From: an uncultured Paraprevotella sp.
Lineage (GTDB): Bacteria; Bacteroidota; Bacteroidia; Bacteroidales; Bacteroidaceae
DNA: 64,000 nucleotides
NCBI GenBank assembly: GCA_944321345.1
Contig: CALUKY010000008.1
Span: forward strand, 1 to 64,000
Direction: 5' to 3'
Under the pieces are notes generated by a model. The model was given only the letters and a program-made list of their open reading frames with translations, had not been told where the DNA came from and did no database searches. The position numbers were made by a program, and so were the translations under genes. Position 1 is the stretch's first letter. Every line of letters starts with the position of its first letter. Shown in pieces: positions 1 to 25,770 of the stretch.

Positions 1-42
1 GGTCTTAATTTTATGAAACGTAAGGAATACCGTAACGAATAG
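1..42 (+). CDS. possible 3' end of an upstream gene (partial)
   Basis: The first frame is open from the window edge to a TAG at 40-42, giving a short basic-acidic tail (KRKEYRNE). The other two forward frames stop at once. A tail this short could be chance, so the product is unknown. If real, it converges on the acetyltransferase that follows. Confidence 0.3.
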   Translation, partial: GLNFMKRKEYRNE

Positions 43-43
43 C

Positions 44-556: not shown

Positions 557-581
557 GAATCAGTAACTTTATTATTACTTT

Positions 582-1202: not shown

Positions 1203-1228
1203 AGTTTCTCCGGAAAAGTCCCGTTTTT
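1175..1228 (+). terminator. rho-independent terminator
   Basis: Arms around ACGGGACTTCTCCGG and CCGGAAAAGTCCCGT form a long hairpin followed by five T. The left arm lies inside the last codons of the glycosylase-like gene, so stop codon and terminator overlap. Confidence 0.8.
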
Positions 1229-1232
1229 ATTT

Positions 1233-1652
1233 TCAAAACAGATTCTCCTTTTTGCGATAACCCGAACTGGTGAGCACGGCTACCAGCCTACCTTCTTCAT
1301 CAGTAATACGCACTTCGATAAAAGGTACCCGGGCGTGCGAAAAGACCTCTTCGGCCTCAGCATACACCCATCCACGGGCCACAGCACTCAGAAAAGTAAT
1401 CTGTGCATTCAGCGACAAGGTGAGCTGCCGGCGGCTGTTGGCCACAGCGGCAAAAGCCAGATCGGCCAGTGTAAACAGGGCACCTCCCTGACAAACGCCT
1501 CCTGCATTCAGATGCTTCTCGGTAACCAGCATGCGGGCCTTGGCATATCCCTCACGCACTTCCATCAACTCAACTCCTGCCTCGGCTGCAAATCGGTCGT
1601 GGAGGAGAATTTCTTTCAGTTTCTCCATAATCTGTTCTTTTTTAAAAATCAT
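1233..1652 (-). CDS. PaaI-type hotdog-fold thioesterase
   Basis: A 139-residue hotdog thioesterase that would hydrolyse acyl-CoA type thioesters in the cytoplasm. The signature helix is seen at GVCQGGALFTLADLAFAA. The catalytic-site HGG of PaaI relatives is QGG here, and the downstream Asp (LAD) is kept. Two starts are possible: ATG at 1652, directly after the receptor stop codon (TAAATG), or ATG at 1628 with an A/G-rich stretch before it. The second gives 131 residues beginning MEKLKEILL and fits the family better. The gene is the second of a two-gene unit with the TonB-dependent receptor. The CoA substrate is unknown. Confidence 0.85.
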   Translation of the reverse strand: MIFKKEQIMEKLKEILLHDRFAAEAGVELMEVREGYAKARMLVTEKHLNAGGVCQGGALFTLADLAFAAVANSRRQLTLSLNAQITFLSAVARGWVYAEAEEVFSHARVPFIEVRITDEEGRLVAVLTSSGYRKKENLF

Positions 1653-4169: not shown

Positions 4170-4200
4170 CGATTTATTTTGTTCTTGTTTTTTCCGGGTG

Positions 4201-4208
4201 CAAAGTAA
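4201..4208 (-). promoter_or_regulatory. Bacteroides-type -7 box of the TonB receptor
   Basis: On the minus strand this reads TTACTTTG, close to the Bacteroides -7 consensus TAnnTTTG. It sits 32 bases before the chosen receptor start and supports that start over the longer one. Confidence 0.6.
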
Positions 4209-4229
4209 CGGAAAAAAGAAAGGCACGGC

Positions 4230-4249
4230 AATCCTAATTTATTAGGATT
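4230..4249. promoter_or_regulatory. 8-bp inverted repeat upstream of receptor promoter (candidate operator)
   Basis: AATCCTAA-TTTA-TTAGGATT is a perfect dyad centred about 35 bases upstream of the -7 box. No T-run follows in the minus direction, so it does not look like a terminator. It overlaps the expected -33 region, where a repressor or activator would bind. Confidence 0.4.
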
Positions 4250-4405
4250 TTTATCAGCACAGCTCTCTAGCGAATTGGCACAAACTTCAAAGGTTTATTC
4301 CATAAAACCAATCAAAGAGGATATGAATTACATAACAAAATTACTGAAAAAATCCAGCTCACAATATACCAAGCCATGATCTGAAAATGATATCAGAAGA
4401 ATTCA

Positions 4406-6886
4406 TTAAGGAACAGCCATGCGCAAAGTCTGATTTCCACAACGGAAAATATAAATTCCGGCAGGCAAGGCAAGATACCCGGCATTCTGTGTCTGATATA
4501 AAAGACTTCCATCCGGACTATAAACACAAAGCGGATCAGACATGAAAGAAGAAACAAAAATTCCTCCCGGAACTATTTTTATCTGTTCAAGAAGCCCTCT
4601 GTCAGTCTGCATATTCTCTATTCCTGTCGGCAGTTCTCTAATATCCAACCGATTCCACCCGTTTGCTTGCAGATACCCCATAATACTACCGGCCGGAACC
4701 AGCAATAGACAGGTCTCCGGAACATTTCCGAAAAGAAGGATATTGGCCTCTACCGGAACCGTCATCATACTTTGCACCTCCTGTAAAGACTGACAATTAT
4801 AAAAAGCCTTCTCACCGATTGCGGCCAATGTGGACGGCAAAGTCAGTTTCTGCATCTGTCTGCATTCAGCCAAAACATGACTACCCAATACGGTTAACCC
4901 TTCTGCAAAATGGAATTCCTGGAGTTTCGAATTGTAATAGAATGCAGAATCACCGACTTCCTTTAATGCTGTTTCCTTATTCTCGAAACCGATACGCTGC
5001 AAGCTGACACAATAAGCAAAAGCAGAACTTCCTATACGCTCAACAGTAGAAGGTAAGGTAATTTCAGGAAGCAGACGGCAATTCTCAAAGGCACGGTGGG
5101 GTATTTCCTTCAACTGGGTAGAGGGATCAAATTCCACAATCTTCACCGGCGCGTCCAACAAAAACTCCTGCGGCAAACGAATGACATCACGCCCAATAAC
5201 CACCTTGTCAAATTCATTTCCCGCCAAACAGCTTTCATCACACTCGGGAACATTCCATACCAAACCATTCCGGGCCGTGCATCCGTAAAAAGCTCCAGGA
5301 TCGGCATGGGGAATACAATGATTGACAACCACCTCGGATAAAATGCAACCACCGAATACCATATTGCCGATACTATCCAAAGTTGCCGGCAATACCATAT
5401 TCTGATTTAATCCGGAAGCTCTGAAAGCCATAGGCCCTAACACCTTCAGTTTCTGTGAGAACGGAAAGTTCTTCAACAGGGAGCATTCGCTGAAGGCATT
5501 TTCCGAAATAACCTCTACATTCTCTCCTCCTACAACTTCTTTTAAATTACCACAACGCAAAAACAAGGCATCAGGCAACACGCGAACTGTGTTTCCCAAA
5601 TGAACCGATGCGATCTGCTCGCAGAACTGAAAGATGGATTTTCCGGAAGCCTCGGGCACATGGTAATCTACATGTTCCAAAGAGGTACACCCTTGAAACG
5701 CCTCATCACCGACCTCTTCCAAAGAGGCTGGTAAGGATATGGTTTTCAAAGCGGATAGATCCCGAAAAGCCCATCTGCCAATATTCTTTATTCCCTCGGG
5801 CAATTTTATTTCCGAAAGTTCCCGACAGCCGTCAAAACACCTTTCGCCGATATATTTCAGAGACGACGGCAAGTTGATATGCTTCAAGCCGGACTCATAG
5901 AACAATTCATCCCCCAAACCTTTGGTATCCGGACGCAAATCAACAGTTCCACCGTTCTGCGCCGCAAATCCCCATTGCATTTCACAGGCAAAACCCTGAA
6001 TATAACGTATTCCCCCTTCATAAGGCAAGCTGTTAAACCAGGGAGTGGCGAAAAAGGCATCATTTCCTAATTTATCAATATCATTGCATAAGTATACAGA
6101 ATCCAACTTTTCACAACTGTAAAAAGAGCTCGCGCCTATCTCCTGCAAATACGGATCACCAACCAGACATTCCAAAGAAGAACACTGCCAGAAAGCCTGA
6201 TCGCCTATGCTTCGTACACCTTCCAGACGTAATGTATCCACCAAAGACTCACAAGCATAGAAAGCATAATCCTCAATGGTATCTGCCTGAAGAGTTTCTG
6301 AAGAAAGACGCAGGGATGAGCAATTCGTAAAAGCCGAATAACGGACACAAGAAAGATCCTCAGGCCACGTAACCTTCCTCAGATTGCTGCATTTATAAAA
6401 TGTTTGCTTCCCGATCACATTCAACATAGAAGGTAAACGGACCTCCTGCAAAGACTCATTTCCATAAAAAAGAGCACTTAAATCATTGGTATATATACGG
6501 TGCCACTGATTCAGGGTATGAGTTTCTGTACGCAATGTATCCGAATAGTAATAATAATTGGTATAGGTGTTTATCGTTTCTCCGGGAACCACACGATAAC
6601 AGAAGCCATCACCAGTCGGACGGGCATGCGTCATATCCAGAAAAACCATATCCTGAAGTTTCCCCTCAGCCTTAGCCAAAACAGCCAGATCCGCACCTCC
6701 CAACGGCCCGTTTATAGTAAGACTGTCAATCCTCTCCGACATACACTGGTCCAATAACTCAGAAAGTTGTCCGCTTTTTGTTGTCGTCAAATACTCATGT
6801 GTACCCTCTGCACACAGAGAAAAGGTTCCTAACCAAAAGGCCACTGTACAAAGCAGCCGATAAAAATTTTCGTTTACAATTCTCAT
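4406..6886 (-). CDS. BspA-like leucine-rich-repeat surface protein with C-terminal sorting-like tail
   Basis: An 826-residue exported protein. An N-terminal hydrophobic stretch (LLCTVAFWLGTFSLC) is a signal peptide. The bulk consists of treponemal/BspA-type leucine-rich repeats (LRR_5 family) with recurring LPSSLKYIGERCFDGC-like units, a family linked to surface binding. The last 70 residues are different: VYSPDGSLLYQTQ, then LPAGIYIFRCGNQTLRMAV, which resembles the C-terminal sorting domain seen on type IX secretion substrates and on many Bacteroides secreted proteins. It has its own promoter and about 180 bases of spacing to the receptor downstream. The binding partner is unknown. Confidence 0.85.
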   Translation of the reverse strand: MRIVNENFYRLLCTVAFWLGTFSLCAEGTHEYLTTTKSGQLSELLDQCMSERIDSLTINGPLGGADLAVLAKAEGKLQDMVFLDMTHARPTGDGFCYRVVPGETINTYTNYYYYSDTLRTETHTLNQWHRIYTNDLSALFYGNESLQEVRLPSMLNVIGKQTFYKCSNLRKVTWPEDLSCVRYSAFTNCSSLRLSSETLQADTIEDYAFYACESLVDTLRLEGVRSIGDQAFWQCSSLECLVGDPYLQEIGASSFYSCEKLDSVYLCNDIDKLGNDAFFATPWFNSLPYEGGIRYIQGFACEMQWGFAAQNGGTVDLRPDTKGLGDELFYESGLKHINLPSSLKYIGERCFDGCRELSEIKLPEGIKNIGRWAFRDLSALKTISLPASLEEVGDEAFQGCTSLEHVDYHVPEASGKSIFQFCEQIASVHLGNTVRVLPDALFLRCGNLKEVVGGENVEVISENAFSECSLLKNFPFSQKLKVLGPMAFRASGLNQNMVLPATLDSIGNMVFGGCILSEVVVNHCIPHADPGAFYGCTARNGLVWNVPECDESCLAGNEFDKVVIGRDVIRLPQEFLLDAPVKIVEFDPSTQLKEIPHRAFENCRLLPEITLPSTVERIGSSAFAYCVSLQRIGFENKETALKEVGDSAFYYNSKLQEFHFAEGLTVLGSHVLAECRQMQKLTLPSTLAAIGEKAFYNCQSLQEVQSMMTVPVEANILLFGNVPETCLLLVPAGSIMGYLQANGWNRLDIRELPTGIENMQTDRGLLEQIKIVPGGIFVSSFMSDPLCVYSPDGSLLYQTQNAGYLALPAGIYIFRCGNQTLRMAVP

Positions 6887-6934
6887 GGCACATTCATTTA
6901 AGGGGTAAAAAATAGATTTACAAACTCATCATTG

Positions 6935-6942
6935 CAAATGTA
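6935..6942 (-). promoter_or_regulatory. -7 box of the LRR protein gene
   Basis: Reads TACATTTG on the minus strand, an exact TAnnTTTG match 49 bases upstream of the start codon. Confidence 0.7.
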
Positions 6943-7395
6943 AATAAAATTATTCATAAAACCCATTATATATATTTTTTAACAGTATTCATGTTAACCA
7001 ATTTAATATTTTCCAAAATCAAGCTCTCAGAGTTCAAAATATACATCGTTGCTGGAGAAATCTTCAAAAAATCAAGATCTCAGCAAGCTAATTATAGAGC
7101 AAACCATTATATTACAACACCTTAAATTAATTATCCATACCATTTTCATCTGCCGAAATAGAGAAAAAAGCTGCCAGAAAGAAGCTAAGAAAAAAATCTT
7201 CCTGATGTTTTCAAATGATCTTCTCGATAACTTTTTTAAAACTTCAGGGAGTTTTTTTACTCACACCACTCATTTTTCCAAACAGAACGACAGTATAGTC
7301 CCGTCTTTTTTGCATAAAAAGCGTATATTTATCGCATACAACAAAGAATATACAATCCCACCCTGAATAAATATACTCTTTTCTTGGCAGAATAT

Positions 7396-7421
7396 CCTTT
7401 TTATCACAGCGGATAAAAAGG
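7396..7421. repeat. 10-bp perfect inverted repeat
   Basis: CCTTTTTATC-acagcg-GATAAAAAGG. No T-run follows directly, so it may be a protein-binding dyad or a structured RNA element rather than a terminator. Confidence 0.4.
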
Positions 7422-7562
7422 GTTACAGACAAGGAAACTTTAATAAACATTAAAAACCAATACTACGTTTTAGCATGGGAACTTTTCTAAAAACCCGATA
7501 AAAATTAGTCCTCAATAAAAACAGAAACCGATCTATTATTTGCAAATCCGTATGAATTTCAT

Positions 7563-7570
7563 TATTTTTG
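7563..7570 (+). promoter_or_regulatory. -7 box for the winged-helix regulator
   Basis: TATTTTTG matches TAnnTTTG, 88 bases before the ATG at 7658. This indicates that transcription begins upstream of the displaced N-terminal fragment rather than at the later ATG at 7779. Confidence 0.55.
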
Positions 7571-7657
7571 TAATAAAACCCAAAAGAAACGGTCCTATCA
7601 AAAAAAATACCCGATTGGTAAACCATGAATAAAAACATAAAGAAAATCTGAAAAGTT

Positions 7658-7753
7658 ATGAAACGCCCAATACTACCTCTTACCGTATTCCTGGCTTTAA
7701 TAACAAGCGCTATCCTTATCAGGAAACTACAACTACCGCATTGCCCAAAATGA
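7658..7753 (+). pseudogene. displaced N-terminal fragment of the winged-helix regulator (frameshift)
   Basis: An ATG at 7658 opens a 31-codon frame whose first 21 residues (MKRPILPLTVFLALITSAIL) form a membrane segment, then it stops at TGA 7751-7753. The regulator frame is open from 7704 onward and reads GNYNYRIAQNEITADLNQAL just before its first ATG at 7779. The two frames overlap between 7704 and 7750, and joining them needs a one-base skip. This is what an interrupted two-membrane-segment regulator would look like. It could also be an assembly error or, less likely, programmed frameshifting. Confidence 0.65.
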
Positions 7754-7778
7754 AATAACTGCCGATCTGAATCAGGCT

Positions 7779-8504
7779 TTGGCCAAACTGATTGAGGACA
7801 ATACAGTATCTGTAATCCCACAAGACACAATCATAGCCTACAAACAGCTACAGGAAACAGCTTGTGGTGAAGTCATGATAGCACTGTCAGACGAAAGATT
7901 CCGTCGCTATCTGAAAAAACTGAACGTGAAAGAATCGGCCTACCTTACTTTTTATATTGTAGGACAGGACAACCCTCATCTTCCACTATCGGAACAGAAC
8001 ATATACAGCGATACGATACTCCTTAAAAACAAACATTCGGGAGAAATCTTGGCCCTAAAGGGATACAGCCAGCTGTCATCAGCAGCAATCTTCAGTATGT
8101 CTGACCAACGCATGTCCATAGCCTTCATGATTGCCGCATTGCTTTGGGGCGCCTTTTCTTTTGCTTATCTGAAAAAGAATCAACAAACGGAAGAAATCAG
8201 TGTGACCAATTTCGGCGGCCTGTCTTATTCGGAAAACGAAGGACGCTTCTATGATGCCACCCAGCTTCCTATTCACTTCACCCCCATGCAACAACAGTTT
8301 ATGAGTTTGCTATGGGAAGCTCCATCACACACCCTCTCTAAAAAAGAGATTTGTGATGCACTCTGGCCCGGAAAAGAAGATGCCAATGATACCCTGTATA
8401 CCCTTGTGCGGAGACTGAAACCGGTTATAGAACAACATACTGACCTGAAAATAACCGCTGACAGATGTGGCAGATATATTCTGAAAATCAAAGATATAGA
8501 TTAA
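7779..8504 (+). CDS. membrane-anchored winged-helix transcriptional regulator (5' end frameshifted)
   Basis: As read from the ATG at 7779 this is 241 residues: an extracytoplasmic domain (1-110), a membrane segment at about 112-131 (MSIAFMIAALLWGAFSFAYL), and a C-terminal OmpR/PhoB-type winged-helix DNA-binding domain at 145-241. The true N-terminus, with a first membrane helix, lies in another frame (7658-7753). The intact form would be a one-component sensor: periplasmic domain, then cytoplasmic DNA-binding domain, like ToxR but in the opposite order. No receiver domain or phosphoacceptor is present. The last 64 codons are duplicated at 10224-10418. By position it probably controlled the outer-membrane protein and protease genes beyond the ATPase. 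Confidence 0.75.
   Translation: MAKLIEDNTVSVIPQDTIIAYKQLQETACGEVMIALSDERFRRYLKKLNVKESAYLTFYIVGQDNPHLPLSEQNIYSDTILLKNKHSGEILALKGYSQLSSAAIFSMSDQRMSIAFMIAALLWGAFSFAYLKKNQQTEEISVTNFGGLSYSENEGRFYDATQLPIHFTPMQQQFMSLLWEAPSHTLSKKEICDALWPGKEDANDTLYTLVRRLKPVIEQHTDLKITADRCGRYILKIKDID
8310..8504 (+). repeat. 195-bp direct repeat, copy 1 (3' end of regulator gene)
   Basis: Matches 10224-10418 with one difference (ATAACCGCTG here, ATAGCCGCTG there). It covers the last 64 codons and stop of the winged-helix domain. The offset between copies is 1914 bases. Confidence 0.95.
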
Positions 8505-8616
8505 CATCCGTATCTTTGTCCTTCCAAATAAAGTGTTTTATATCTTCATAAACTTATAGATTATCCGTTGGCGGAATTAAAATCCGTTGTTATACCTGTT
8601 TTCCAATAAAATTATT

Positions 8617-8624
8617 TATCTTTG
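8617..8624 (+). promoter_or_regulatory. -7 box of the AAA-ATPase gene
   Basis: TATCTTTG, an exact TAnnTTTG match 36 bases before the ATG at 8660. The ATPase gene therefore carries its own promoter within the repeat-bounded segment. Confidence 0.65.
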
Positions 8625-8659
8625 TTCTAATTGAATACAAAGTTTAATGTGCATCAATT

Positions 8660-10255
8660 ATGAAATACCCGATAGGCATACAAAGTTTTGACCAGATTAT
8701 CGAAGACGGTTATGTATATGTTGACAAAACCGATCTGGTATATCGCTTGGCTACAGAAGGAAAAATATATTTCCTCAGTCGGCCACGCCGTTTCGGAAAG
8801 AGCCTGCTGGTCTCTACCTTGAAAAACTATTTCTTAGGACGGAAAGAATTGTTCAAGGGACTGAAGATCGACACATTAGAACAAGACTGGAAGGTCTATC
8901 CCGTGTTCCATATTGACTTCAATGCTACCAATTACACCAATCCCGGTGAACTGGAAAGAAAGTTAAGTTATTATATCACTACTTGGGCCGATCAGTATTC
9001 CTTGCCGGAAAGAAGCAAGACTTTGGGATTGGGCGATCTGTTTGCTGAAGTGCTCCGTGCGGCTCATGAGCAGAGTGGCCGCCGTGCCGTGGTACTTGTC
9101 GATGAATACGACAAACCGGTGCTGGATGTGCTGGATGTGGACAAGAATCTGGAGGAAGAGCACCGCAACATTCTGAAAAGTTTCTACTCGGTGTTCAAGG
9201 GAGCCGACGAGCATCTGCAGTTCGTATTCCTTACCGGAGTGACTAAGTTCTCACAGGTCAGCGTGTTCAGCGGTTTCAACCAACCGTTGGATATCAGTAT
9301 GCACAGCAAGTATGAAACGCTTTGCGGTATCTCTCAGGAGGAACTGAATGCGGTTTTTCGGGAACCGATTGAAGAAATGGCAGCAGTATACAGATGTTCC
9401 TATGAAGAAATAATGGCTCAGCTTAAGGCACAATACGACGGGTATCATTTCAGCGATCTCATGACGGATATCTATAACCCGTTCAGTCTGCTGAACGCAT
9501 TCGAGTCCCAGCGCATCAGCGACTTTTGGTTCAAAAGCGGAACACCGACTTATCTCATCCGCCTTCTTTCGCATACGGACGAGAATATGAGCGAGATTAC
9601 CGGAAAGTACTACACAGCTGAAGAATTCATTGACTATAAGGCCAATATAGAGCAACCTCTACCGATGATTTATCAAAGCGGATATCTCACCATAAAGGAT
9701 TTTGATTTCCGTCGTAACGCCTTCCTGCTTGACTATCCCAATAATGAAGTCAAAAAAGGATTTTTGTCTTTGATTGCAGGTAGTTACTTCAATACGCGCG
9801 AGAGTATTTACTCTTGGATACAGAATGCAGCCTTTCAGTTACAGGACGGAAACCTCGACGACTTCCGCAGCGGCCTGACCTCATTCCTAGCCAGTATCCC
9901 CTACACCATGCGCCGGAAGGAAAATGAACGTGAAAGAGAACGCTATTTCCACTACACGTTCTATCTCATCATGCGCCTGATCAGTGTCTACACCGTATAT
10001 ACAGAAAAGGTGCAGAGTCACGGACGTGTAGATTGCATTGTGGAGACAAACGATTATGTCTATATCTTCGAATTCAAACTCGACGGTACGGCTGACGAGG
10101 CCATGCGCCAGATTGAAGAGAAAGGCTATGCCCGCGAATATGAAGCGGACAAGCGGAAGATTTATCTTATCGGTGCCGTATTCTCTTCAGAAACCGGAAC
10201 AATTAAAGAATGGAAATCTATTCCTATGGGAAGCTCCATCACACACCCTCTCTAA
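8660..10255 (+). CDS. AAA-ATPase-like / PD-(D/E)XK nuclease family protein
   Basis: A 531-residue protein of the widespread Bacteroidetes family with an N-terminal AAA-ATPase_like domain and a C-terminal PDDEXK_9 (DUF1703) nuclease-like domain. Walker A is at 43-49 (RRFGKSL), Walker B at 144-151 (VVLVDEYD) and the sensor-like LTGVTKFS at 191-198. The nuclease motif is D458 followed by E471-F-K473 (IFEFK), with QIEEKGY at 485-491. Members are often multicopy in one genome; their role is not established, though mobility or defence has been suggested. The last nine or ten residues (MGSSITHPL) are read from the downstream 195-bp repeat in a different frame, so the native C-terminus just after KEWK appears to have been replaced. 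It has its own promoter. Confidence 0.9.
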   Translation: MKYPIGIQSFDQIIEDGYVYVDKTDLVYRLATEGKIYFLSRPRRFGKSLLVSTLKNYFLGRKELFKGLKIDTLEQDWKVYPVFHIDFNATNYTNPGELERKLSYYITTWADQYSLPERSKTLGLGDLFAEVLRAAHEQSGRRAVVLVDEYDKPVLDVLDVDKNLEEEHRNILKSFYSVFKGADEHLQFVFLTGVTKFSQVSVFSGFNQPLDISMHSKYETLCGISQEELNAVFREPIEEMAAVYRCSYEEIMAQLKAQYDGYHFSDLMTDIYNPFSLLNAFESQRISDFWFKSGTPTYLIRLLSHTDENMSEITGKYYTAEEFIDYKANIEQPLPMIYQSGYLTIKDFDFRRNAFLLDYPNNEVKKGFLSLIAGSYFNTRESIYSWIQNAAFQLQDGNLDDFRSGLTSFLASIPYTMRRKENERERERYFHYTFYLIMRLISVYTVYTEKVQSHGRVDCIVETNDYVYIFEFKLDGTADEAMRQIEEKGYAREYEADKRKIYLIGAVFSSETGTIKEWKSIPMGSSITHPL

Positions 10256-10418
10256 AAAAGAGATTTGTGATGCACTCTGGCCCGGAAAAGAAGATGCCAA
10301 TGATACCCTGTATACCCTTGTGCGGAGACTGAAACCGGTTATAGAACAACATACTGACCTGAAAATAGCCGCTGACAGATGTGGCAGATATATTCTGAAA
10401 ATCAAAGATATAGATTAA
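10224..10418 (+). pseudogene. 195-bp direct repeat, copy 2: orphan winged-helix 3' fragment
   Basis: A near-identical copy of 8310-8504 encoding the last 64 residues of the regulator (LWEAPSHTLSKKEICD to IKDID) with one Thr-to-Ala change (KITAD to KIAAD). The reading frame continues 5' into antisense-like ATPase sequence with no plausible start, so it is a truncated fragment. It lies directly upstream of the promoter of the outer-membrane protein gene, which is where the intact regulator would be expected in an uninterrupted locus. Confidence 0.85.
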
Positions 10419-10489
10419 TATCAGCAGAATATCAGGTAATTGTCAGGAAAATGTCAGTATCTGTTTTTGCTCTCCATAATAAAGTATTC

Positions 10490-10497
10490 TACATTTG
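10490..10497 (+). promoter_or_regulatory. -7 box of the outer-membrane beta-barrel gene
   Basis: TACATTTG, an exact TAnnTTTG match 37 bases before the ATG at 10527. Confidence 0.65.
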
Positions 10498-10526
10498 TTC
10501 TATAAACTTCAAAAATTACAGAACAA

Positions 10527-12842
10527 ATGAAGAATCTTTTTATCTCTTTCATGGTGTTTTTGATTTATGGCACACCATCATTAGCTGAAAAACTTACAGG
10601 AACTATCTGCAACGAAAACAACAAGCCTATTTCCGGAGCAAACGTATATATCAGCACTCCAAATGACGGCAAAATTGTAACCGACACACAAACAACGTCT
10701 AAAGGAGTCTTTACAATAAATGACATTGAAGCCGGAAAATATATCTTATCATGTTCGCATGTAGGGTATTCAGACTACACGGCAGAAATTCATATATCCC
10801 AAGGTCAAGACTTGATTTTGGGTACGCTTATGATGTACTCCAGAAATATTCAATTGGACGAAGTGTCTGTTACCGTCAATCGCAACGTATTTACTACTAA
10901 CAAGCAATCTCTTTACCCTTCCGAACAACAAATCAAATCGTCAGGAAGCGGATTGGATCTGCTGCAAAAGCTCCCGATTCCTTTACTGAACATTAACCCT
11001 ATCAATCGTACAATTTCTTCTTGGGATCCTTCCGGTGGTGTTGCGGTGCTGATCAATGACATACCTGCGGAAGCTAACGATGTTGCCATCATTGACCCGA
11101 AGACTATAAAACGTGTAGAGGTAATTCGCAAACCGGGTATGGAATATGGTCCCAATTTATCCATGGCTATTAATATTGTAGTAAAGAGAGCACAAGATGG
11201 AATAAGTCTGGGAGTAAATAGTACAAACTCAATGAAACTGACCAATGGATATAATAACCTGTTTGCTACATACAGTCATAAAGACTCACAATTAACCATC
11301 AATCAAAGCGAAAATTATCAGAACTACTCGAAACAAGGTTTTGAAGATCAGCGCCAATATCTCTTACCTACCGGCAACTGGCACACCGTAAACATAAAAA
11401 GCCTGTCTGCACGCACACGTTCTGCCACACACGGAACCACACTGAAATATAATCTTACCAAAGAAAACAATTTTGTATTGCAGCTACAAGGACAACTGAA
11501 TTTGCATCGTAGTCCCCAACAAGACCGTTCTTATCTTGTGAGCGAAACGGGAAAGGAGGATTACATCAACAACTCCTATGTTAAAGACCGGTATCAGTCA
11601 CCAGCACTGAACATATATTTTAAAAAATATCTGCCAAAGTACCAAAGCTTTATTTTCAATGTAGTAGGAACACATATCGGCTCCGACTATAATTATTTGT
11701 ATGAACAGGCGGACAACTCCTTTAATACAGGTTACAGTGTAACTGGAAAGAAATCTTCTGTAATCGGTGAGATGAAATATACCAAAGGATTCAATTGGGG
11801 TAATATTGTTTCCGGTGTACGTTCTTTTTATGGCAATACCCAAAACAGTTATGCAGGAAATACAAACACTGAAGCAGTGATGGAGAATGTCAATTCTAAC
11901 CTCTATGCTCAGGTAAATGCCCGTTGGAAACAAATTTCCGGTAGTGCTACTTTTTCGTTAGATGATCAGTTTTATACGCAACAAGACAACGAGTATCACA
12001 AGCAGACCTTTAGTCCACGTATCAATCTTAATTATTCGTTCAATCCGAATTTAAGTCTGGGTTACGGATTTAACCTGTCATCCCGTCTACCCTCTTTGTC
12101 TTCCTTGAATGATATTACCTTTCAAATAGACCAATGGGAGCGCCGTACAGGAAATCCTTACCTAAAACCTTTCAATCATATTGAAAACTCGTTGTCCGCG
12201 ACCTATTATAATTCAAAATTATATACGATGCTTAACGTGGTCTATGCGACCAACAAAAACGCAATCATGCCTTCGATTACCCGTACAGACACCGATGGAC
12301 AGATTTACTTTGATAATGAGGTAGAAAATCAACGCGATATGAAACAATTCGTATTGACAGCTTTTATGCGCTATGCATTTTTGAATAACAAACTCATTGT
12401 GAGCGGCACTGGAAGCTACAATTTCTATCATGCTGACAGTGAATTCTATTCTAACAAACGCGGATTCTTTTTCGGCAATCTCAGAGCAGAAGGTTATCTT
12501 GACAAGTTCTATCTTGCAGCAAGTGTTCAAAGCCGCTACAATTCTCTTTTTGCGGAAACCATCTGGTATAACGAATACTCCAGCTCACTCAGTGCAACTT
12601 ACAGCTGGAAGAACCTTCGCATAGGCTTGACATGGGAGAACCCGTTACAACGGAACGGCACGAACAATCGTGTGGAAACAATTAACCATGTGATACAAAA
12701 GCAGGTCCGCCAATGTAATCCCGAAGCAGGCAACAATATTCTGCTTACGATATCATGGAATTGGAATCATGGTTTTAAAGCTAAAATACAGGATGCAGAA
12801 CTGAACAATAAGGACTCCGATGCTGGTATCCTGAAACAGTAA
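10527..12842 (+). CDS. outer-membrane beta-barrel protein, TonB-receptor-like
   Basis: A 771-residue outer-membrane protein. Residues 1-20 are a signal peptide (cleavage near SLA-EK). Residues 22-105 form a carboxypeptidase-regulatory-like beta-sandwich (GTICNENNKPISGANVYIS, GKYILSCSHVGY). Residues 110-230 form a TonB plug-like domain ending VEVIRKPGMEYG, and the rest is barrel of the outer-membrane beta-barrel type 3 family. It lacks a SusD partner. In this family the ligand is usually unknown; peptides and metal complexes are candidates. It follows the regulator fragment and precedes an aspartic-protease-like gene by 72 bases, likely one transcript. The lower GC content than the housekeeping genes suggests acquisition. 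Confidence 0.85.
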   Translation: MKNLFISFMVFLIYGTPSLAEKLTGTICNENNKPISGANVYISTPNDGKIVTDTQTTSKGVFTINDIEAGKYILSCSHVGYSDYTAEIHISQGQDLILGTLMMYSRNIQLDEVSVTVNRNVFTTNKQSLYPSEQQIKSSGSGLDLLQKLPIPLLNINPINRTISSWDPSGGVAVLINDIPAEANDVAIIDPKTIKRVEVIRKPGMEYGPNLSMAINIVVKRAQDGISLGVNSTNSMKLTNGYNNLFATYSHKDSQLTINQSENYQNYSKQGFEDQRQYLLPTGNWHTVNIKSLSARTRSATHGTTLKYNLTKENNFVLQLQGQLNLHRSPQQDRSYLVSETGKEDYINNSYVKDRYQSPALNIYFKKYLPKYQSFIFNVVGTHIGSDYNYLYEQADNSFNTGYSVTGKKSSVIGEMKYTKGFNWGNIVSGVRSFYGNTQNSYAGNTNTEAVMENVNSNLYAQVNARWKQISGSATFSLDDQFYTQQDNEYHKQTFSPRINLNYSFNPNLSLGYGFNLSSRLPSLSSLNDITFQIDQWERRTGNPYLKPFNHIENSLSATYYNSKLYTMLNVVYATNKNAIMPSITRTDTDGQIYFDNEVENQRDMKQFVLTAFMRYAFLNNKLIVSGTGSYNFYHADSEFYSNKRGFFFGNLRAEGYLDKFYLAASVQSRYNSLFAETIWYNEYSSSLSATYSWKNLRIGLTWENPLQRNGTNNRVETINHVIQKQVRQCNPEAGNNILLTISWNWNHGFKAKIQDAELNNKDSDAGILKQ

Positions 12843-12914
12843 TTTTCCTATATTCTTGTCTATATATCAAAAACACCTAAACAAACAATCAAAAAAATAA
12901 AAACCCTATTTGTT

Positions 12915-14291
12915 ATGAGAAACTTAGAAACTATTTTTTCACAACTTCGCAATACCATATGCGAAACATCAACTTTAGCCCAACAAACAATCCAAAGTAT
13001 CTTGAGGCAATTCAGAAAACCGTATCATCGTATGGAACATAAACATTGGGGAATTTATCTTCTGTGCTCATTGGCAGTATTACATATTAGCTGTGATAAT
13101 GCTAATAAAGTTGAAGAAAAACATATACCTTTTGAATTTGGCGAAGAGGCTCCAAGACTTTTAATACCCGTTACGTTGCAGGACAGCATTCCTGCTAAAT
13201 TAGTTCTTGACACAGGTATTGGGGGGACTCCACTTTTAGACTCAGCGTTTGTTTCTCAGCATCCTTCATTAGTACCAGAAGATATACCCTCACGAGAATG
13301 CGTATCCAGTTCGGCCTGGAATCCTACTTATACGACAAAAATCACATCGTATTATGCCCCCCTTAAGTTGAAGTTGGGCGAGAGTCCCATGGATTTTGGT
13401 AATTGGGGCGTTGGCAACTATCGTAAACTTGTTAATGAAAACGATGCGGATGGAATTACGGGAATTCCCAGTGCTGACAGTACAAAGGTTTGGGAACTCA
13501 ATTTCGAGAACAACTACATAACCATACAAGAAGCGGACAGCTTTAAGATGCCAAAAGGATATATGCAGTTTTCGATGAAAGTGGTCACTTATCCGGCAGG
13601 AGGTATGACTATCCATGTTAATCTTCCGCTGAAAGTACAAACCTCTGACGGAGATACGGTGACGATATACCGCGATTTCTTTGTTGATACCGGTGCGTGG
13701 AACGACATTATTCTTACATCTGAAGCTTCCGAACTTGCATTTTTTGACAACAAGAAAGATGCGGTATGGATTGCTACACCTTATAACGGACTGTACACAA
13801 GAAATCATGAGGTAAAAGTAAGTCTGGGAGAGTATGAGGATGATTCGTTCCGTGTGACTACATATGACCATAAGCATAAGACTACTGTATCCAGTCGTTA
13901 CCTTATAGGACTGAACTTTTTGAAGCATTTTAATGTTTATTTTGATTTTCAGAGGAAGGTGATGGGATTGAAACCTATTTCGAATTTTGAAAGAATCATA
14001 GACAAGCATGCAAGACGCTATCATATGGGATTCAATATGGAAATTATAACCAAGCAACAACGTTTCATTGTTGAGACCATTGCCGACAACAAGGAGAACA
14101 ACTACTATACAGCGGGTTTACGTGTAGGCGATGAAATTATTTCCGCAAATGGAATCTTATGGAAGGATATCACACCGGAACAAAAAGAAACATTGTACCA
14201 AGGGGACTTCATCAGATTTAAGATCATCCGGGACGGAAAGAACATGGAAATCCCGGTTCCTGTAAACAAGAATGAGCCTATCGGGTATTAA
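12915..14291 (+). CDS. aspartic-protease-like protein with PDZ domain, probable envelope lipoprotein
   Basis: A 458-residue protein with two aspartic-protease signatures, LVLDTGIGGTP (D99) and FFVDTGAWND (D258), so the two lobes of a pepsin-like fold appear to be in one chain. A C-terminal PDZ domain spans about 375-455 (AGLRVGDEIISANG). An internal ATG at 13032 begins MEHKHWGIYLLCSLAVLHISCDN, a hydrophobic segment ending in Cys like a lipoprotein signal, although the residue three before Cys is His rather than Leu/Val/Ile. The longer start adds 39 residues with no signal character, so the true start may be 13032 (419 residues). It probably acts in the periplasm or at the cell surface, cleaving or binding peptides related to the barrel protein upstream. 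Confidence 0.8.
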   Translation: MRNLETIFSQLRNTICETSTLAQQTIQSILRQFRKPYHRMEHKHWGIYLLCSLAVLHISCDNANKVEEKHIPFEFGEEAPRLLIPVTLQDSIPAKLVLDTGIGGTPLLDSAFVSQHPSLVPEDIPSRECVSSSAWNPTYTTKITSYYAPLKLKLGESPMDFGNWGVGNYRKLVNENDADGITGIPSADSTKVWELNFENNYITIQEADSFKMPKGYMQFSMKVVTYPAGGMTIHVNLPLKVQTSDGDTVTIYRDFFVDTGAWNDIILTSEASELAFFDNKKDAVWIATPYNGLYTRNHEVKVSLGEYEDDSFRVTTYDHKHKTTVSSRYLIGLNFLKHFNVYFDFQRKVMGLKPISNFERIIDKHARRYHMGFNMEIITKQQRFIVETIADNKENNYYTAGLRVGDEIISANGILWKDITPEQKETLYQGDFIRFKIIRDGKNMEIPVPVNKNEPIGY

Positions 14292-14300
14292 TAACATTAT

Positions 14301-14344
14301 AAAGTGCCCCCAAAAAGTTAAGCATAAACTTTTGGGGGCACTTT
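14301..14344. terminator. long hairpin after the protease gene
   Basis: Arms AAAGTGCCCCCAAAAAGTT and its near-perfect complement enclose a 7-base loop. It can terminate transcription of the preceding gene. The arm sequence also resembles terminal inverted repeats of IS3/IS150-group elements (TGnnCCCCnAAAAGTT), so it may be two abutted element ends or a small palindromic remnant. Confidence 0.6.
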
Positions 14345-14358
14345 ACTAGCCAAACAGC

Positions 14359-14538
14359 TCATTTCTTCTTATTGAAGTCCGGCAGAATACAATCATACAC
14401 ATTTTGCCAACAAGAACTATATCGGAGAGGATTCATCTCTTCAGCATGCCACAGAATCCGAACAAGCTTTCCTGCCTTAAAGCTCAATAATACCTCCGAA
14501 TTAACTTCTCTGAAGGGACTTGTCAAGTGAAGCGTGGC
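14359..14538 (-). pseudogene. 59-codon C-terminal remnant of an unrecognised protein
   Basis: On the minus strand the frame is open from just after a TAA to TGA at 14359-14361 and reads ...LVRILWHAEEMNPLRYSSCW and ...VYDCILPDFNKKK. No start with a ribosome site is visible. A shorter, related reading (YSFCRQKVYDYILPDNSKKK) occurs at 19956-20028, which shows that the frame was once coding and was copied. I do not recognise the family; a mobile-element protein is possible. Confidence 0.5.
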
Positions 14539-14566
14539 TTATGGCGTAATATATTTTATTACCTCC

Positions 14567-14622
14567 TTGTTCATTCATATCTTATTGTTCATTTATAATG
14601 AACATCACTAAAAAATGAACAA
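14567..14622. promoter_or_regulatory. nested palindromic GTTCATT array (candidate operator)
   Basis: A central dyad GTTCATT-tat-AATGAAC (14587-14603) is framed symmetrically by an outer pair TTGTTCATT (14567-14575) and AATGAACAA (14614-14622). Four half-sites in mirror order suggest cooperative binding of a dimeric regulator. No intact gene starts immediately next to it. Confidence 0.5.
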
Positions 14623-14788
14623 ATTATGATATTGACAGAACGCGAGACATTGAATCTGGCTGCATATTGCTGCTTTCCAAAAAAGCCGTGTATCAATGTT
14701 TCACGAACGATTGACACACAGCTTGCATAGTTCTGAATTCGTCGAACTCACGTTATTTAAGTATTAAAAAGATTGACAGAGTCAGATC

Positions 14789-14932
14789 TTAATTCCATAT
14801 ATTCTCATATATCAGTTCGTTGGAAAACTGATCACTTCCTTCTGAACCTGATACAGGCAGGCTCATAGAACAAATATCTGTTTCGCAATATGCTATAAGC
14901 TCCATTCGTGGAGTCATATATTCTTTTTTCAT
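14789..14932 (-). CDS. 47-residue small protein downstream of the large secreted protein
   Basis: ATG at 14932 to TAA at 14789-14791, 47 residues beginning MKKEYMTPRMELIAYCETDI and ending in an acidic-aromatic tail (YENIWN). Bacteroides genomes often carry such MKKEYxxPxME ORFs after large secreted or surface proteins. Their function is unknown to me. It starts 10 bases after the stop of the 1531-residue gene, so it is probably cotranscribed with it. A decayed copy of its 3' half is found at 19862-19935. Confidence 0.65.
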   Translation of the reverse strand: MKKEYMTPRMELIAYCETDICSMSLPVSGSEGSDQFSNELIYENIWN

Positions 14933-14942
14933 ATTATAATAA

Positions 14943-17900
14943 TTATTTGATTACTAATTTCTTACCATTTACTATATATACACCTGGACGCTTCATATCT
15001 GTTACCCGACGACCACTCAAATCATATATTTCAACATCATTTCCACCGAAGAGTTCATCTATACCAGTTACAGTTGAATCATCCCAAACTACACCACGAA
15101 TCTGTTTTCCTACAGGTAAATCAAGATAAGCCTTAAAGGCATTCAGAAGATTTCCGGAATACTTGAAGAAACCAAGCTGATTATCCACAATCTGCAAAGT
15201 ATAGGGATTCATTTCTTCACTTATTGACTTATCTGCAAAGATACCTCGTAAATCATTCTGCATAGAAATATTGTTTTCCGCATATCCGTCATACAGCAAT
15301 TGGTAGTTGCCTGGCATTCCTTTTATAATTACTGGGACAGCAGGAGGAACAATATCACCTTCCAACTTAGACATCTTTAACCAGCCATCTTCAATTCTTC
15401 CAACATAAGCCTCCATTCCATCTGTGAGTTTTACCGCAACAGGCAAGTAAAGAGTTGTATAACCATTATCTTCATAATTGCGTAACTCCACATTAAAGGC
15501 TGGAATATATTTATCGGAAACGTCCTCTACATACCAGTAACTATTATCTCCCGAATCATAAGATTCTTCTGATAAATAATAACCACGTCCTGTTAAATAA
15601 GAATTGTCAGGAGATACAATCTGCATAAGACCAAGTTTACCAAATACTTCTCTAAAGAAATACTCAGTACCAGTTGATTTATTCGCATAAGCAGCCCCAT
15701 TTAACTGCAAATGCATCATACTACCAGTTAAATGTCTGTCATTTCCATAATAGAATGTTGAACTTTCTATAGATGGAGAATCTGACAAAGTTAGATAATT
15801 ACCATCCGTATACGACTGCAAATATAATCCACTCTCCGAATTTTTAAAACGGTAAGCACGTCCCGATGTTGGTAAGTTTAAACGTAATGCTTCTCGTAAA
15901 CTCTTCAAACTATCTGCCATTTCATAAGCATTATCATCATCTATTGCATTCGGCCAAATTCGTGCAGTCTTGGTATATGTCTCGGCAAAATGGACAGTAT
16001 CAGTATATTGTCCTATTTTATCACCTAAATAACACAAATAGGTGGCACTACGATTTAATTCAGATAACAAATAATCTGAACCAATTAAACTCATGTTCGC
16101 ATAAGGAATAACTATAGACTTAGATTTAATCTCACTAGATACGACCCTATCTGGAACAAAATATACAAAATTATAGTTGTTATAAACATCTCCACTATAT
16201 TCGTTAGTAAACGATTGTGGCAAACCTTCACTCAACAAATAAGCATCTTCTGGAATTACAGAAGGAACAAGACTACCAGTTACCCCATTAACAGTTTTTT
16301 GGGCAGAAAAATCAACATTCATAGCTACCTGCAGTTTTAAAATAATACTATCATTGTCAGAAGCACTACTCATATTATTTCCTGGGATATAAAAGAATGG
16401 TTCACAAGCCCTCAAACAACTATTATTTTCCTTTGGAGATAACACAACCCCCATTTTACCCGTTTGAGTGATCTCATATGCAGCATTACCCAAAGAAGAG
16501 TCATCCGTTATTTTCTGTAATCCTACAGGAAAGTAACAAGGAAGTAATCTTCCTGAAGGTACTTTATCATAATTAATAATAGGAAACTCATAATCTCCAA
16601 CTAAAACTCCACTTTCTGTACAGTCTGTTGTATAAATATCCCAACAAGATCCTCCATCTAAATTACAATTATTCCAATAAACAACTTTCTGACCCAATGT
16701 CTGAGCATGCAACGGATACAGATATTCTCCATTAACATTGTAAGCATCTAAAATAAAAGAACCATAACCGATTTCACGAAGAGTAAAAAAATTGGGATTT
16801 AAACTAAGAGAAGCGCTATTACTATAAATATTCTCTCTAACAGCAGCACACGAAACGAACAGGCCAGTTGCTTTATTCTGAATAGCATAAGACGTATCAT
16901 TAACTTGAATAAAACGCCAAGTAGCATAATCCATGTCAGTAATCCCATTACGAAGCATATCAGCTTTAGTTCCAAAACGTAGTTCTGCATTATTCACAAC
17001 TCCATCTAATGATTTTACATACATCATTCCACGACGAATATAATATCCATCATCAGTCTGATGTTTATCTTGCTCCGTTCCAGTTATATCATAAAACCTT
17101 TGGTTTATAGAGATATAATACCAAACACCCGTTTTTTCAGAGTCTGCAGCTTGAATCCATCGTTGTTTTTCTCTAAAATCGCGATAATATCCCTTAAGAT
17201 CCCTTAAAATTAAATCAATATCTAACTGAGAGAAACTATTATTAAGCTCCATATTTCGAATACTGCTCTCGACTGATTCAATCTGACTATGCATTTTTTG
17301 TATATCAGCCTCTTTATATGTTCCTGGATCTGGGTATATTTCAATTCTGCCATCTGACATATTTTCACTGACAGTCATTGCAAAATAATCCTTTACGTCT
17401 TGTAAATAAGTCTTTAATTCAGTTGCATCTGGAAAGATTTTTTCATATTCTTCATAAGCCTTCTGTAATTGAATATAGGCTAGAAAAATATCATTTAATG
17501 TTGACAAACTGTCTTTTAAAACAGTTCTTGCCTCCAATATACTTCTATTTAAAGATGTAGCATACTCCTTAATATCACTTCTATAAATTAAAGAATTTGA
17601 TTCTATTTTAGCATCCTGAAAATGGAAACCGGCAAAATGTGTAAACCCGTTTTCTGATTTCCAAGTAACACGTACATATTGGTACTTTCCACCTAATTCA
17701 AACATATCAGACTGATAAGCCAAACTTGCATCATCATAGGAATAAATACTTGCAGGCAATCCAGTGATAGCACCAACATCAACCCATTCCCCACTGGTTG
17801 TATCATTTGTTACTTGAAAATAAATTTCTGTAGCTTGAGAAATATTTCTTCTACGAAGGATAGAAACAGCAAATGACTCAACAGCTTTATTCAATTTAAA

Positions 17901-19538
17901 CTGCAAATAAGGTTGCCCCACATCAACAGCCTCTCCCCAATTTGAATGCCAAAAAGTTTTTTCATATTGCCCTATCGCATTCATGCCCATTACAGTATCC
18001 GCATCCAAAAGTCCTTCATAACCTAAACCATCTTTATGGTTAGGATTCAAAGTATTATGATCTGCATTAGAAAATACAACCATAGAATCTGTTTTATAGT
18101 CATCTAAGGTAACCAACCAATGCTCCGGCAAAGTATCAATTGTTACATTACAGCCTCGCCTATATTTATCTTGCGCTTTATTAACTAATAATTCTAATTC
18201 TGCTTTTTGCAAATAAAATTCTGTCTCACGTAAACCAATGTTAATAAAAGCTTGAGCCGTATCAGCATCTAAAGGACGCAAATACCACGAAGAACCTGTC
18301 AAAGTCCCACCAGCATATTCAACAACATCACCTTCTTTCCCTAAACCATGAGAATGGCCTGCTGTATGCATTGGCAAAGCATTTTCTAATGCGATATTAA
18401 AATCACCATTTTCCAAAAGAGATATATTGACAATACGAGCTACAGAATCACGCCCTGTCACATATTTTGTGGATATACCATTTGATTCAGAAATATATTG
18501 CTGCGTGCCCAAATTTTTCATACGCCAACTACCGTCAGAATGTTTTATAAATTCCCATCCCATAGTCGGTTCATTTTGATCATACGTTTTCCATTTAACG
18601 TCTCCCTTATTTGTTGCATACATAGCCATTTCTACTCCTTGCAGATCTTTAAAATTGGAGTATCCACTAACAACACGATAATATCCAGGAGTTAGCTGTT
18701 TACATCCGGAAAAGATCAAATCATCCCATGCTTTCTTTAATGCATTGTAAGCATGCTCACATTCCAATAAATCAGCTTCCTCTTGCGCAATCAGTATTTT
18801 AGCATTTTCTCTACAATCGTTAAAGGCTGTAACTAAACCAACATCATAATCTCCCCAATCATTTCCAGAAACAAAATGCAAATTGGCAACTTGTTCATAT
18901 AAAAATTTAAGATCCTCTATATAATCAACCTCTGAAACAGTTCTATAAACCTGAATAGTACCGTTACTTGAAATATATGAACTTACATAAGGATTCTCTT
19001 TGCTAAAATCCAAACATAAAAAGGAACGATATTCTAAACATTCTTTACATTGAGTTAAAAGAAATAAGTGATTCACCCAAGTAACCTTATCTTGTGAATA
19101 ATCAGGTACGGAACGGGAATAAACTACAAACTGACTAGCATTCTTTTTATCATCTGCATAAACCAAGCGGTAATTCTTCATTCCTCTAATGCCCATATTC
19201 GGATCATATACCAAATACTTACCTGTTACCTCATTTTTTAAATAATAATAAGGAAAACCTTCATACATTCCCCCAGCACTCTCCAAAACAAATACAATGG
19301 TGGGATGAGTAAATGATTCCGGCAATTCTCTCCAAATCAAACTATCACCGGCAGAACCTAAAAAACGATAACTTGGCTGATTGCCATTATAAACAGATTC
19401 AGTATACCGAATCGCAATTTTATCACCCGACTTTAGTTCTAAAGGATTGGTTATTTGCCCAATAAGATTCACCTTCCCATGAGCAACAAAAGTCAAACTC
19501 AAGAAATAAGTCAAACAAATAAACAGTAGTCTTCTCAT
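14943..19538 (-). CDS. large secreted multidomain protein with discoidin-like domain and sorting-like tail
   Basis: A 1531-residue exported protein. Residues 1-21 form a signal peptide (cleavage near AHG-KV). A region near 530-670 looks like an F5/8-type C (discoidin) sugar-binding domain (SNWGEAVDVGQPYLQFKL, KYQYVRVTWKSENGFTHFAGF). Helical spacers (near 240-280 and 650-780) and ricin-like or beta-trefoil-like segments may be present, but I cannot define them. The C-terminus, VEIYDLSGRRVTD to PGVYIVNGKKLVIK, is the canonical Prevotella/Bacteroides C-terminal sorting-type tail. No catalytic motif is recognised. AT-rich codon use sets it apart from the neighbouring carB. The 47-residue ORF follows it. 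Confidence 0.75.
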   Translation of the reverse strand: MRRLLFICLTYFLSLTFVAHGKVNLIGQITNPLELKSGDKIAIRYTESVYNGNQPSYRFLGSAGDSLIWRELPESFTHPTIVFVLESAGGMYEGFPYYYLKNEVTGKYLVYDPNMGIRGMKNYRLVYADDKKNASQFVVYSRSVPDYSQDKVTWVNHLFLLTQCKECLEYRSFLCLDFSKENPYVSSYISSNGTIQVYRTVSEVDYIEDLKFLYEQVANLHFVSGNDWGDYDVGLVTAFNDCRENAKILIAQEEADLLECEHAYNALKKAWDDLIFSGCKQLTPGYYRVVSGYSNFKDLQGVEMAMYATNKGDVKWKTYDQNEPTMGWEFIKHSDGSWRMKNLGTQQYISESNGISTKYVTGRDSVARIVNISLLENGDFNIALENALPMHTAGHSHGLGKEGDVVEYAGGTLTGSSWYLRPLDADTAQAFINIGLRETEFYLQKAELELLVNKAQDKYRRGCNVTIDTLPEHWLVTLDDYKTDSMVVFSNADHNTLNPNHKDGLGYEGLLDADTVMGMNAIGQYEKTFWHSNWGEAVDVGQPYLQFKLNKAVESFAVSILRRRNISQATEIYFQVTNDTTSGEWVDVGAITGLPASIYSYDDASLAYQSDMFELGGKYQYVRVTWKSENGFTHFAGFHFQDAKIESNSLIYRSDIKEYATSLNRSILEARTVLKDSLSTLNDIFLAYIQLQKAYEEYEKIFPDATELKTYLQDVKDYFAMTVSENMSDGRIEIYPDPGTYKEADIQKMHSQIESVESSIRNMELNNSFSQLDIDLILRDLKGYYRDFREKQRWIQAADSEKTGVWYYISINQRFYDITGTEQDKHQTDDGYYIRRGMMYVKSLDGVVNNAELRFGTKADMLRNGITDMDYATWRFIQVNDTSYAIQNKATGLFVSCAAVRENIYSNSASLSLNPNFFTLREIGYGSFILDAYNVNGEYLYPLHAQTLGQKVVYWNNCNLDGGSCWDIYTTDCTESGVLVGDYEFPIINYDKVPSGRLLPCYFPVGLQKITDDSSLGNAAYEITQTGKMGVVLSPKENNSCLRACEPFFYIPGNNMSSASDNDSIILKLQVAMNVDFSAQKTVNGVTGSLVPSVIPEDAYLLSEGLPQSFTNEYSGDVYNNYNFVYFVPDRVVSSEIKSKSIVIPYANMSLIGSDYLLSELNRSATYLCYLGDKIGQYTDTVHFAETYTKTARIWPNAIDDDNAYEMADSLKSLREALRLNLPTSGRAYRFKNSESGLYLQSYTDGNYLTLSDSPSIESSTFYYGNDRHLTGSMMHLQLNGAAYANKSTGTEYFFREVFGKLGLMQIVSPDNSYLTGRGYYLSEESYDSGDNSYWYVEDVSDKYIPAFNVELRNYEDNGYTTLYLPVAVKLTDGMEAYVGRIEDGWLKMSKLEGDIVPPAVPVIIKGMPGNYQLLYDGYAENNISMQNDLRGIFADKSISEEMNPYTLQIVDNQLGFFKYSGNLLNAFKAYLDLPVGKQIRGVVWDDSTVTGIDELFGGNDVEIYDLSGRRVTDMKRPGVYIVNGKKLVIK

Positions 19539-19746
19539 AAGAATATTTTTTTAAAAATTAATAACATCAAAAACTATTTATTACAATAATCATTGTATAA
19601 AATTCAATTGAACATATAAATACAATCAATATATTTTTACAAATAAAAAGAAAATTCATTCAATATACAAAACAATAAACTTAAAAATTGTTTCTTTATC
19701 TACAAACATCTCTCAGGAAGTACTTTTATTATCAAATCACAAAAAT

Positions 19747-19810
19747 AAAATGAATCTTCATGACCCAAAATCCCTTTAGGAAGAAACCCTTTATCATGAA
19801 GATTCATTTT
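19747..19810. repeat. 17-bp perfect inverted repeat (hairpin)
   Basis: AAAATGAATCTTCATGA and its exact complement are separated by 30 bases. It may be a stem-loop in the leader region or a relic of a terminator. It is not followed by a long T-run. Confidence 0.5.
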
Positions 19811-19861
19811 AAACTATACTATCTGAAACAATGAATTAATCTTTATATTTAGAATTCATTT

Positions 19862-19935
19862 TCAAATATTCTCATACATCAGCTGGTTGACAAACTGATT
19901 ACTTCCCTTCTAAAGCTGATAGAGACAGACTCTAG
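19862..19935 (-). pseudogene. decayed copy of the 47-residue small ORF
   Basis: The minus strand reads KGSNQFVNQLMYENI before a TGA, matching EGSDQFSNELIYENI of the intact ORF at 14789-14932. Upstream the frame is shifted and broken. Confidence 0.6.
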
Positions 19936-19955
19936 GCACTTTCTAACCAAACAGA

Positions 19956-20028
19956 TCATTTCTTCTTACTGTTGTCCGGAAGAATATAATCATACACTTT
20001 TTGTCTACAAAAGCTATATTGGAAAGCA
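19956..20028 (-). pseudogene. decayed copy of the 59-codon remnant
   Basis: Reads FQYSFCRQKVYDYILPDNSKKK and then stops. It aligns with the tail of the remnant at 14359-14538. The DNA of the two loci (14338-14437 and 19938-20030) is clearly related. Confidence 0.6.
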
Positions 20029-20036
20029 TAAAAAAA

Positions 20037-20074
20037 CTCTCTCCGACAAATCCTGTGATTGTCGGAGAGAGTTT
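20037..20074 (-). terminator. rho-independent terminator of carB
   Basis: On the minus strand AAACTCTCTCCGACAA pairs with TTGTCGGAGAGAGTTT and is followed by a T-run. It lies 30 bases beyond the carB stop. Confidence 0.85.
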
Positions 20075-20103
20075 ATAGTGTTTCAAAAAACGGGTCAGAG
20101 TGA

Positions 20104-23328: not shown

Positions 23329-23359
23329 GATTAATAGGTTTTTAAAGTTGTTCATCATG

Positions 23360-23367
23360 CAAATGTA
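23360..23367 (-). promoter_or_regulatory. -7 box of carB
   Basis: Reads TACATTTG on the minus strand, 32 bases before the chosen ATG, and settles the start choice. Confidence 0.7.
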
Positions 23368-25761: not shown

Positions 25762-25770
25762 AGAAACATC

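Follow-up and report, generated by a model that had tools for sequence, protein, structure and literature searches.

The window analysed here is a 64,000-nt stretch from one draft Paraprevotella genome (G000; 2.9 Mb, 78 contigs, 91 per cent complete). It carries, on the forward strand, a regulator gene, an ATPase/PD-(D/E)XK nuclease gene, an outer-membrane gene and a putative protease gene, and the 3' end of the regulator gene recurs at the end of the ATPase gene (Table 1). The initial annotation had positions 8310–8504 recurring at 10224–10418 with one mismatch, which the repeat alignment confirmed as part of a direct repeat of 202 nt with three mismatches (8309, 8454 and 8505 in copy A). Chance can be dismissed as its origin because the two copies match with a BLAST E-value of 8e-97. 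The 1712 nt between them (8509–10220) hold one long open reading frame, that of the ATPase. The copies had also been described as marking both borders of the ATPase segment exactly; the repeat is real, but its right border lies 4 nt beyond the regulator stop, its left border is a deletion junction, and the recombined tract in the left-hand regulator starts ∼27 nt further upstream, near 8280.

Table 1. Features of the repeat-bounded ATPase locus and its surroundings (window coordinates).
Feature	Position	Strand	Basis or remark
Variable island	6950..20030	.	13 kb, compared with about 2.1 kb in sister species G016
Left-hand regulator A, C-terminal winged helix	7660..8504	+	ORF from TTG 7779 (7779–8504); PF00486 match
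Putative recombined 3' tract of regulator A	8280..8508	+	Few synonymous differences from the G009 regulator
Repeat copy A	8307..8508	+	BLAST/self-comparison; 3' end of the left-hand regulator ORF
Spacer and ATPase leader	8509..8658	+	150 nt
DUF1703-type ATPase/PD-(D/E)XK gene	8660..10255	+	PF09820 and PF08011 profile matches
Putative deletion junction, ATPase 3' end/second regulator	10219..10224	+	Comparison with G009 locus L015
Repeat copy B	10221..10422	+	Putative 3' remnant of second regulator, by comparison with G009
Promoter region and first codons of outer-membrane gene	10423..10561	+	Contiguous with copy B; homologous to G009 post-regulator DNA
Outer-membrane beta-barrel gene, carboxypeptidase-regulatory-like N-terminal domain	10527..12842	+	Profile search
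Putative aspartyl protease, PDZ-like C-terminus	12915..14291	+	All matches under curated cut-offs
Block 94–96 per cent identical to G009 DNA, equivalent post-operon position	14303..14661	-	Comparison with G009

The assignment of the gene between the repeats to the ATPase/PD-(D/E)XK class was borne out by full-length matches to both domains of the DUF1703 family, an N-terminal PF09820 (239 bits against a cut-off of 26.1, profile positions 1–201 of 201) and a C-terminal PF08011 nuclease domain (83.8 bits, cut-off 25.5). The reading frame enters the right-hand repeat in a frame differing from that of the regulator, and the last 11 residues (I, then PMGSSITHPL) are almost entirely encoded by repeat DNA, replacing the usual protein end; relatives have their C-terminus a few codons beyond a conserved W. 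Codons 62–131 form a divergent mosaic patch, nearest among the fetched copies to one from another genus (L186, 77 per cent amino acid identity), and would be a further exchanged patch. Defence-system models gave only weak matches at the locus, and IMG/VR held no match to the junction pattern or to the ATPase peptide patterns. Plasmid and phage records (four and seven, respectively) matched parts of the 7.1-kb query at just 60–80 per cent.

Regulator A, which we take from its layout to be a ToxR/CadC-like one-component regulator, matches PF00486 just below the cut-off (25.7 bits against 26.2; E 1.2e-5). Its N-terminal anchor segment, read from ATG 7660, is out of frame with the remainder, so that this regulator is possibly not intact. 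Both Paraprevotella regulators found (G000 and G009) have their anchor out of frame, in different senses, and it is in frame in the relatives shown, of which L105 has its anchor start outside the displayed stretch; this suggests decay or an internal start. Four TCAG words spaced exactly 11 nt apart (10421, 10432, 10443 and 10454; window 10421–10457) precede the outer-membrane gene and are possibly a candidate binding site for the regulator.

Because G000 and G009 alone, among 18 genomes searched in the genus, carry the regulator, the sole comparison for gene order is G009, an uncultured Paraprevotella MAG (record CALUIV010000015.1, contig G009:C15) that may itself be recombinant. There a whole regulator comes immediately after an orthologous ATPase gene (89 per cent nucleotide identity) and leads into the promoter DNA also seen in the window. 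Window 10221–10561, the regulator end and the DNA beyond it, is collinear with positions 7441–7780 of the G009 locus (L015) at 89 per cent, and the promoter segment was found outside the window in G009 only (86 per cent) among the 18 genomes searched. The preceding 705 nt in G009 (L015 6736–7440) have no equivalent in the window. Given this order in G009, with ATPase, whole regulator and promoter DNA in succession, copy B is best read as the leftover of a second regulator that lost ∼705 nt by deletion, and not as a target duplication. No repeat flanks the G009 ATPase copy itself within 1.5 kb; a second, partial junction of ATPase 3' end and regulator 5' end, 93 per cent identical to the first, lies past the operon, 6.6 kb away. 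A circle with ATPase and regulator on it, inserted by simple Campbell integration, was considered and rejected: the DNA after the stop of regulator A does not correspond to the G009 post-regulator promoter DNA. It is very unlikely that two strains or loci were merged at the repeat during assembly; the draft does consist of 78 contigs, with other family copies at contig ends, but the flanks of the two repeat copies differ on either side, and the flank of copy B is seen independently in G009.

The ATPase homology to G009 begins sharply, one base ahead of the ATG, and the 150-nt spacer has only short matches elsewhere (20–37 query bases) in the 18 genus genomes, its own among them. Because the spacer is unmatched and homology starts at the ATG, recombination followed by deletion does not account for the joining of regulator A to the ATPase leader.

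Regulator A itself appears to be a mosaic. Over the first 166 codons aligned with the G009 regulator, 84.4 of 110 synonymous sites differ (77 per cent), and over the last 72 codons 6 of 47.3 (13 per cent), a contrast between the N- and C-terminal parts with odds of 22 (Fisher p 6e-14). Between the same genomes the share of synonymous sites that differ is 83 per cent in carB and 27 per cent in the ATPase from codon 135 onwards. Four regulator pairs from other genera served as controls and all lean in the same direction, more weakly (L099/L100, odds 2.0, p 0.09; L103/L107, odds 1.8, p 0.18; L099/L101, odds 2.1, p 0.09; and the close pair L101/L102, odds 8.6, p 0.017, with one change in the C part; all by Fisher test). 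Because of this shared lean, slower change of the C domain may account for part of the contrast. In the three divergent controls, though, the C part differs at 67–72 per cent of synonymous sites, compared with 13 per cent here, and the change of synonymous divergence within regulator A is sharp and well beyond that of the controls. The low-divergence tract starts near 8280, upstream of the left end of copy B, and the donor or second regulator must therefore have been longer than the present copy B when regulator A acquired the tract. Recombination between regulator copies, which the initial annotation had offered as one explanation, is supported by this mosaic with its exchanged 3' third.

The locus lies within a variable island. 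G016 is the sister species of G000 (carB 98 per cent identical, compared with 80 per cent for G009), and window 1–6949 and 20031–27240 are collinear with its contig C2 at 92 and 96 per cent, respectively. The island holds the regulator, the ATPase, the outer-membrane gene, the putative protease and a gene of 1531 amino acids; G016 lacks it at this place, and the regulator was not found in the G016 genome. Family ATPases are present elsewhere in G016, one of them 88 per cent identical to that of the window. The G009 and G016 homologues differ at 26 per cent of synonymous sites (codons from 135 on), against 81 per cent for carB, and because they are too alike for that divergence the ATPase gene appears to have been exchanged between species.

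Further traces of rearrangement are seen downstream. When window 10527–14291 is set beside L015 7671–12727, the DNA before and after the operon is shared and the genes inside differ. G009 has an F5/8C-M60 peptidase and an aspartyl protease where the window has the outer-membrane gene and the putative protease, a difference that looks like cargo exchange. The block after the operon contains a lipoprotein-gene remnant with an internal deletion (about 14368–14538). Remnants of the 3' end of a lipoprotein-like gene (14337–14432 and 19935–20029, 83 per cent mutual identity) flank the segment with the 1531-amino-acid gene, and the G016 locus has a 359-amino-acid open version.

The survey for flank repeats took in 72 ATPase copies at 55 chosen loci (25 from the genus, including the window, and 30 from five genomes of other genera), a selection from the family copies listed, and compared the 1.5-kb flanks on the two sides of each copy for direct repeats. 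Before counting, the window was set aside together with 27 copies from the 12 array loci and two contig-end copies (L008 and L088), which leaves 42 free-standing copies; for the divergent copies L194–L198 detection covers part of the gene, so that their flanks begin within it. Flank repeats were found at three of the 42 (L090, 24 nt at 96 per cent; L094, 55 nt at 76 per cent; L186, 61 nt at 80 per cent), and at none was there one longer than 61 nt or comparable to that of the window. Near-identical duplications of differing targets around several copies were absent from this set. Insertion with target duplication, the other explanation initially offered, with duplicated flanks at other copies as its suggested check, was rejected: any flank repeats were short or weak, none resembled that of the window, and G009 joins ATPase and regulator in the other order.

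A more elaborate form of insertion is a small element, with the ATPase as recombinase, that integrated at the 3' end of a gene and brought a replacement 3' end, keeping its target whole. The anatomy would fit such an element (one gene, with a longer gene copy to its left and a displaced 3' fragment to its right), as would the sharp start of ATPase homology at the start codon and the frequent occurrence elsewhere of the regulator–outer-membrane order free of the ATPase. Its improbability follows from the survey, in which a comparable flank duplication was seen at none of the 42 other free-standing copies, from the lack of an integrase gene between the repeats by ORF and profile search, and from the G009 copy, whose own 1.5-kb flanks share no repeat, though its 3'-end/regulator-5' junction recurs 6.6 kb away. 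In addition, G000 and G016 both appear to have inherited two further loci of the family. The match extends to the two flanks of L096, spanning a contig break, and to a single flank of L009, where the G016 contig ends on the other side.

A search of 301 family genomes gave regulator matches in 75 in addition to G000 and G009, and 20 of the best-ranked loci (6.7–13 kb each) were fetched from other genera. An outer-membrane homologue follows the regulator on the same strand in 14 of the 20, with an alignment that runs from near residue 100 through to its end, and the ATPase is present in none. In these loci a regulator normally stands directly before the outer-membrane gene. The empty site expected of an insertion thus has a counterpart in other genera, but in G016 regulator, ATPase and outer-membrane gene are missing together and a clean site lacking the ATPase alone was not found.

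Tandem or partial arrays were present at 12 of the 55 loci, and in 11 of the 12 there were repeats outside the ATPase, mostly leader DNA of tandem copies. At L079 a unit of 2.4 kb is repeated, which puts about 900 nt of non-ATPase upstream DNA on both sides of one ATPase copy. It is possible, though rather unlikely, that the window holds the relic of such an array formed without any import, in which an ATPase-regulator-operon unit was repeated, the first operon was lost, the regulators underwent gene conversion and the second lost its 5' part. The frequency of arrays, the L079 repeat and the second, truncated junction past the G009 operon would all agree with this. However, the 5' part of regulator A stands at species-level divergence from G009, whereas its 3' part and most of the ATPase do not; plain duplication leaves this split unexplained, and exchange with another lineage is therefore still needed.

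Several other family loci are rearranged in their own ways. The tandem ATPases at L087 (1452–3006 and 3110–4664) are 98.8 per cent identical from start codon to near the end despite different leaders, as though gene conversion had homogenised them. At L083 (G016:C6) an ATPase 3' end (6974–7040) recurs at 81 per cent identity upstream of the next ATPase (9449–9516), the two surrounding a PP2C homologue and an aspartyl-protease gene, and the shared blocks of this region differ in order between G009 and G016. The G000 locus syntenic to the second G016:C6 ATPase (L152, G000:C47, 12072–13765) has no ATPase and a 110-nt stretch 75 per cent identical to an ATPase 3' end; this contig stops short of where the first would lie. 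Another ATPase copy is immediately preceded by an internally deleted 3' fragment of a sulfatase gene (G000:C10:73567–73827; L008 4568–4828), an arrangement also seen in G016:C31 (L096), and a whole sulfatase gene is at G000:C10:50982–52520.

The duplicated regulator end is probably the scar of homologous recombination and a later deletion within a horizontally exchanged, decaying island. A native regulator, belonging before the outer-membrane gene, would have met DNA of another lineage in the order ATPase-regulator-promoter that G009 has kept. Recombination within the winged-helix part would have produced a hybrid regulator A upstream, with native 5' and incoming 3' parts, and, downstream of the ATPase, a second regulator. 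A subsequent deletion of ∼700 nt would then have joined the ATPase 3' end to what remained of the second regulator, its last 195 nt. As read from the sequences, comparison supplies the G009 order, the change of divergence inside regulator A, the missing 705 nt and the absence of the island from the corresponding place in G016; we infer the order of events, the donor lineage and ordinary host recombination as the agent. The ATPase would most likely be a passenger, its family growing locally through tandem duplication, and a self-mobile ATPase is unlikely. We also infer that the repeats would permit RecA-type recombination that removes the ATPase and restores the regulator–outer-membrane order.

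A bolder proposal is that DUF1703 ATPase/nucleases drive recombination at the 3' ends of their neighbours and move with captured gene ends, such as the regulator end here, the sulfatase 3' end (G000:C10) and the ATPase 3' end (G016:C6), the 195-nt repeats being a live, reversible excision pair. We regard this as highly doubtful. If the ATPase did drive such exchanges, the DUF1703 form would gain a function; no assayed function for it is given in the available portions of PMC6387759, PMC1913061 and PMC10952713. The locus is a clear but fairly ordinary case of gene shuffling. A tidy repeat-bounded gene is not necessarily an insertion, and relatives can reveal the scar of exchange and deletion behind it. 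At the loci examined, copies of the family sit in exchanged, rearranged DNA and multiply locally in tandem, with no footprint of transposition.

Certain integrative elements insert at tRNA genes or at the 3' ends of genes, restoring the gene. The window resembles the result in having a longer gene copy and a displaced 3' fragment around cargo, but differs in that no integrase lies between the repeats, the exchanged tract exceeds the repeat, and the pattern is absent at the other family copies examined. Target duplication by the DUF1703 family is not mentioned in the titles and opening parts of abstracts retrieved under its names and accessions, and a literature search combining mosaic and tandem themes gave no paper that matched five or more of its six terms. 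PF09820 is, as far as the accessible text goes, listed among the domains of phage defence systems (PMC10952713). The window ATPase is typical of its family in having both full domains (PF09820 AAA-ATPase_like and PF08011 PDDEXK_9) and the RPRRFGKS variant of Walker A with a DEYD Walker B, as given in the accessible part of PMC1913061, and departs from it in its last codons, which are neighbouring DNA, and in codons 62–131, which appear exchanged. A parallel in these sources is the Cardinium cCpun genome, with an expanded DUF1703 family (PMC6387759). Neither duplicated neighbouring genes nor a survey of arrays figures in the part of that description available, but its paralogues, like the copies described here, are multicopy, recombining and thought to be horizontally acquired (PMC6387759).
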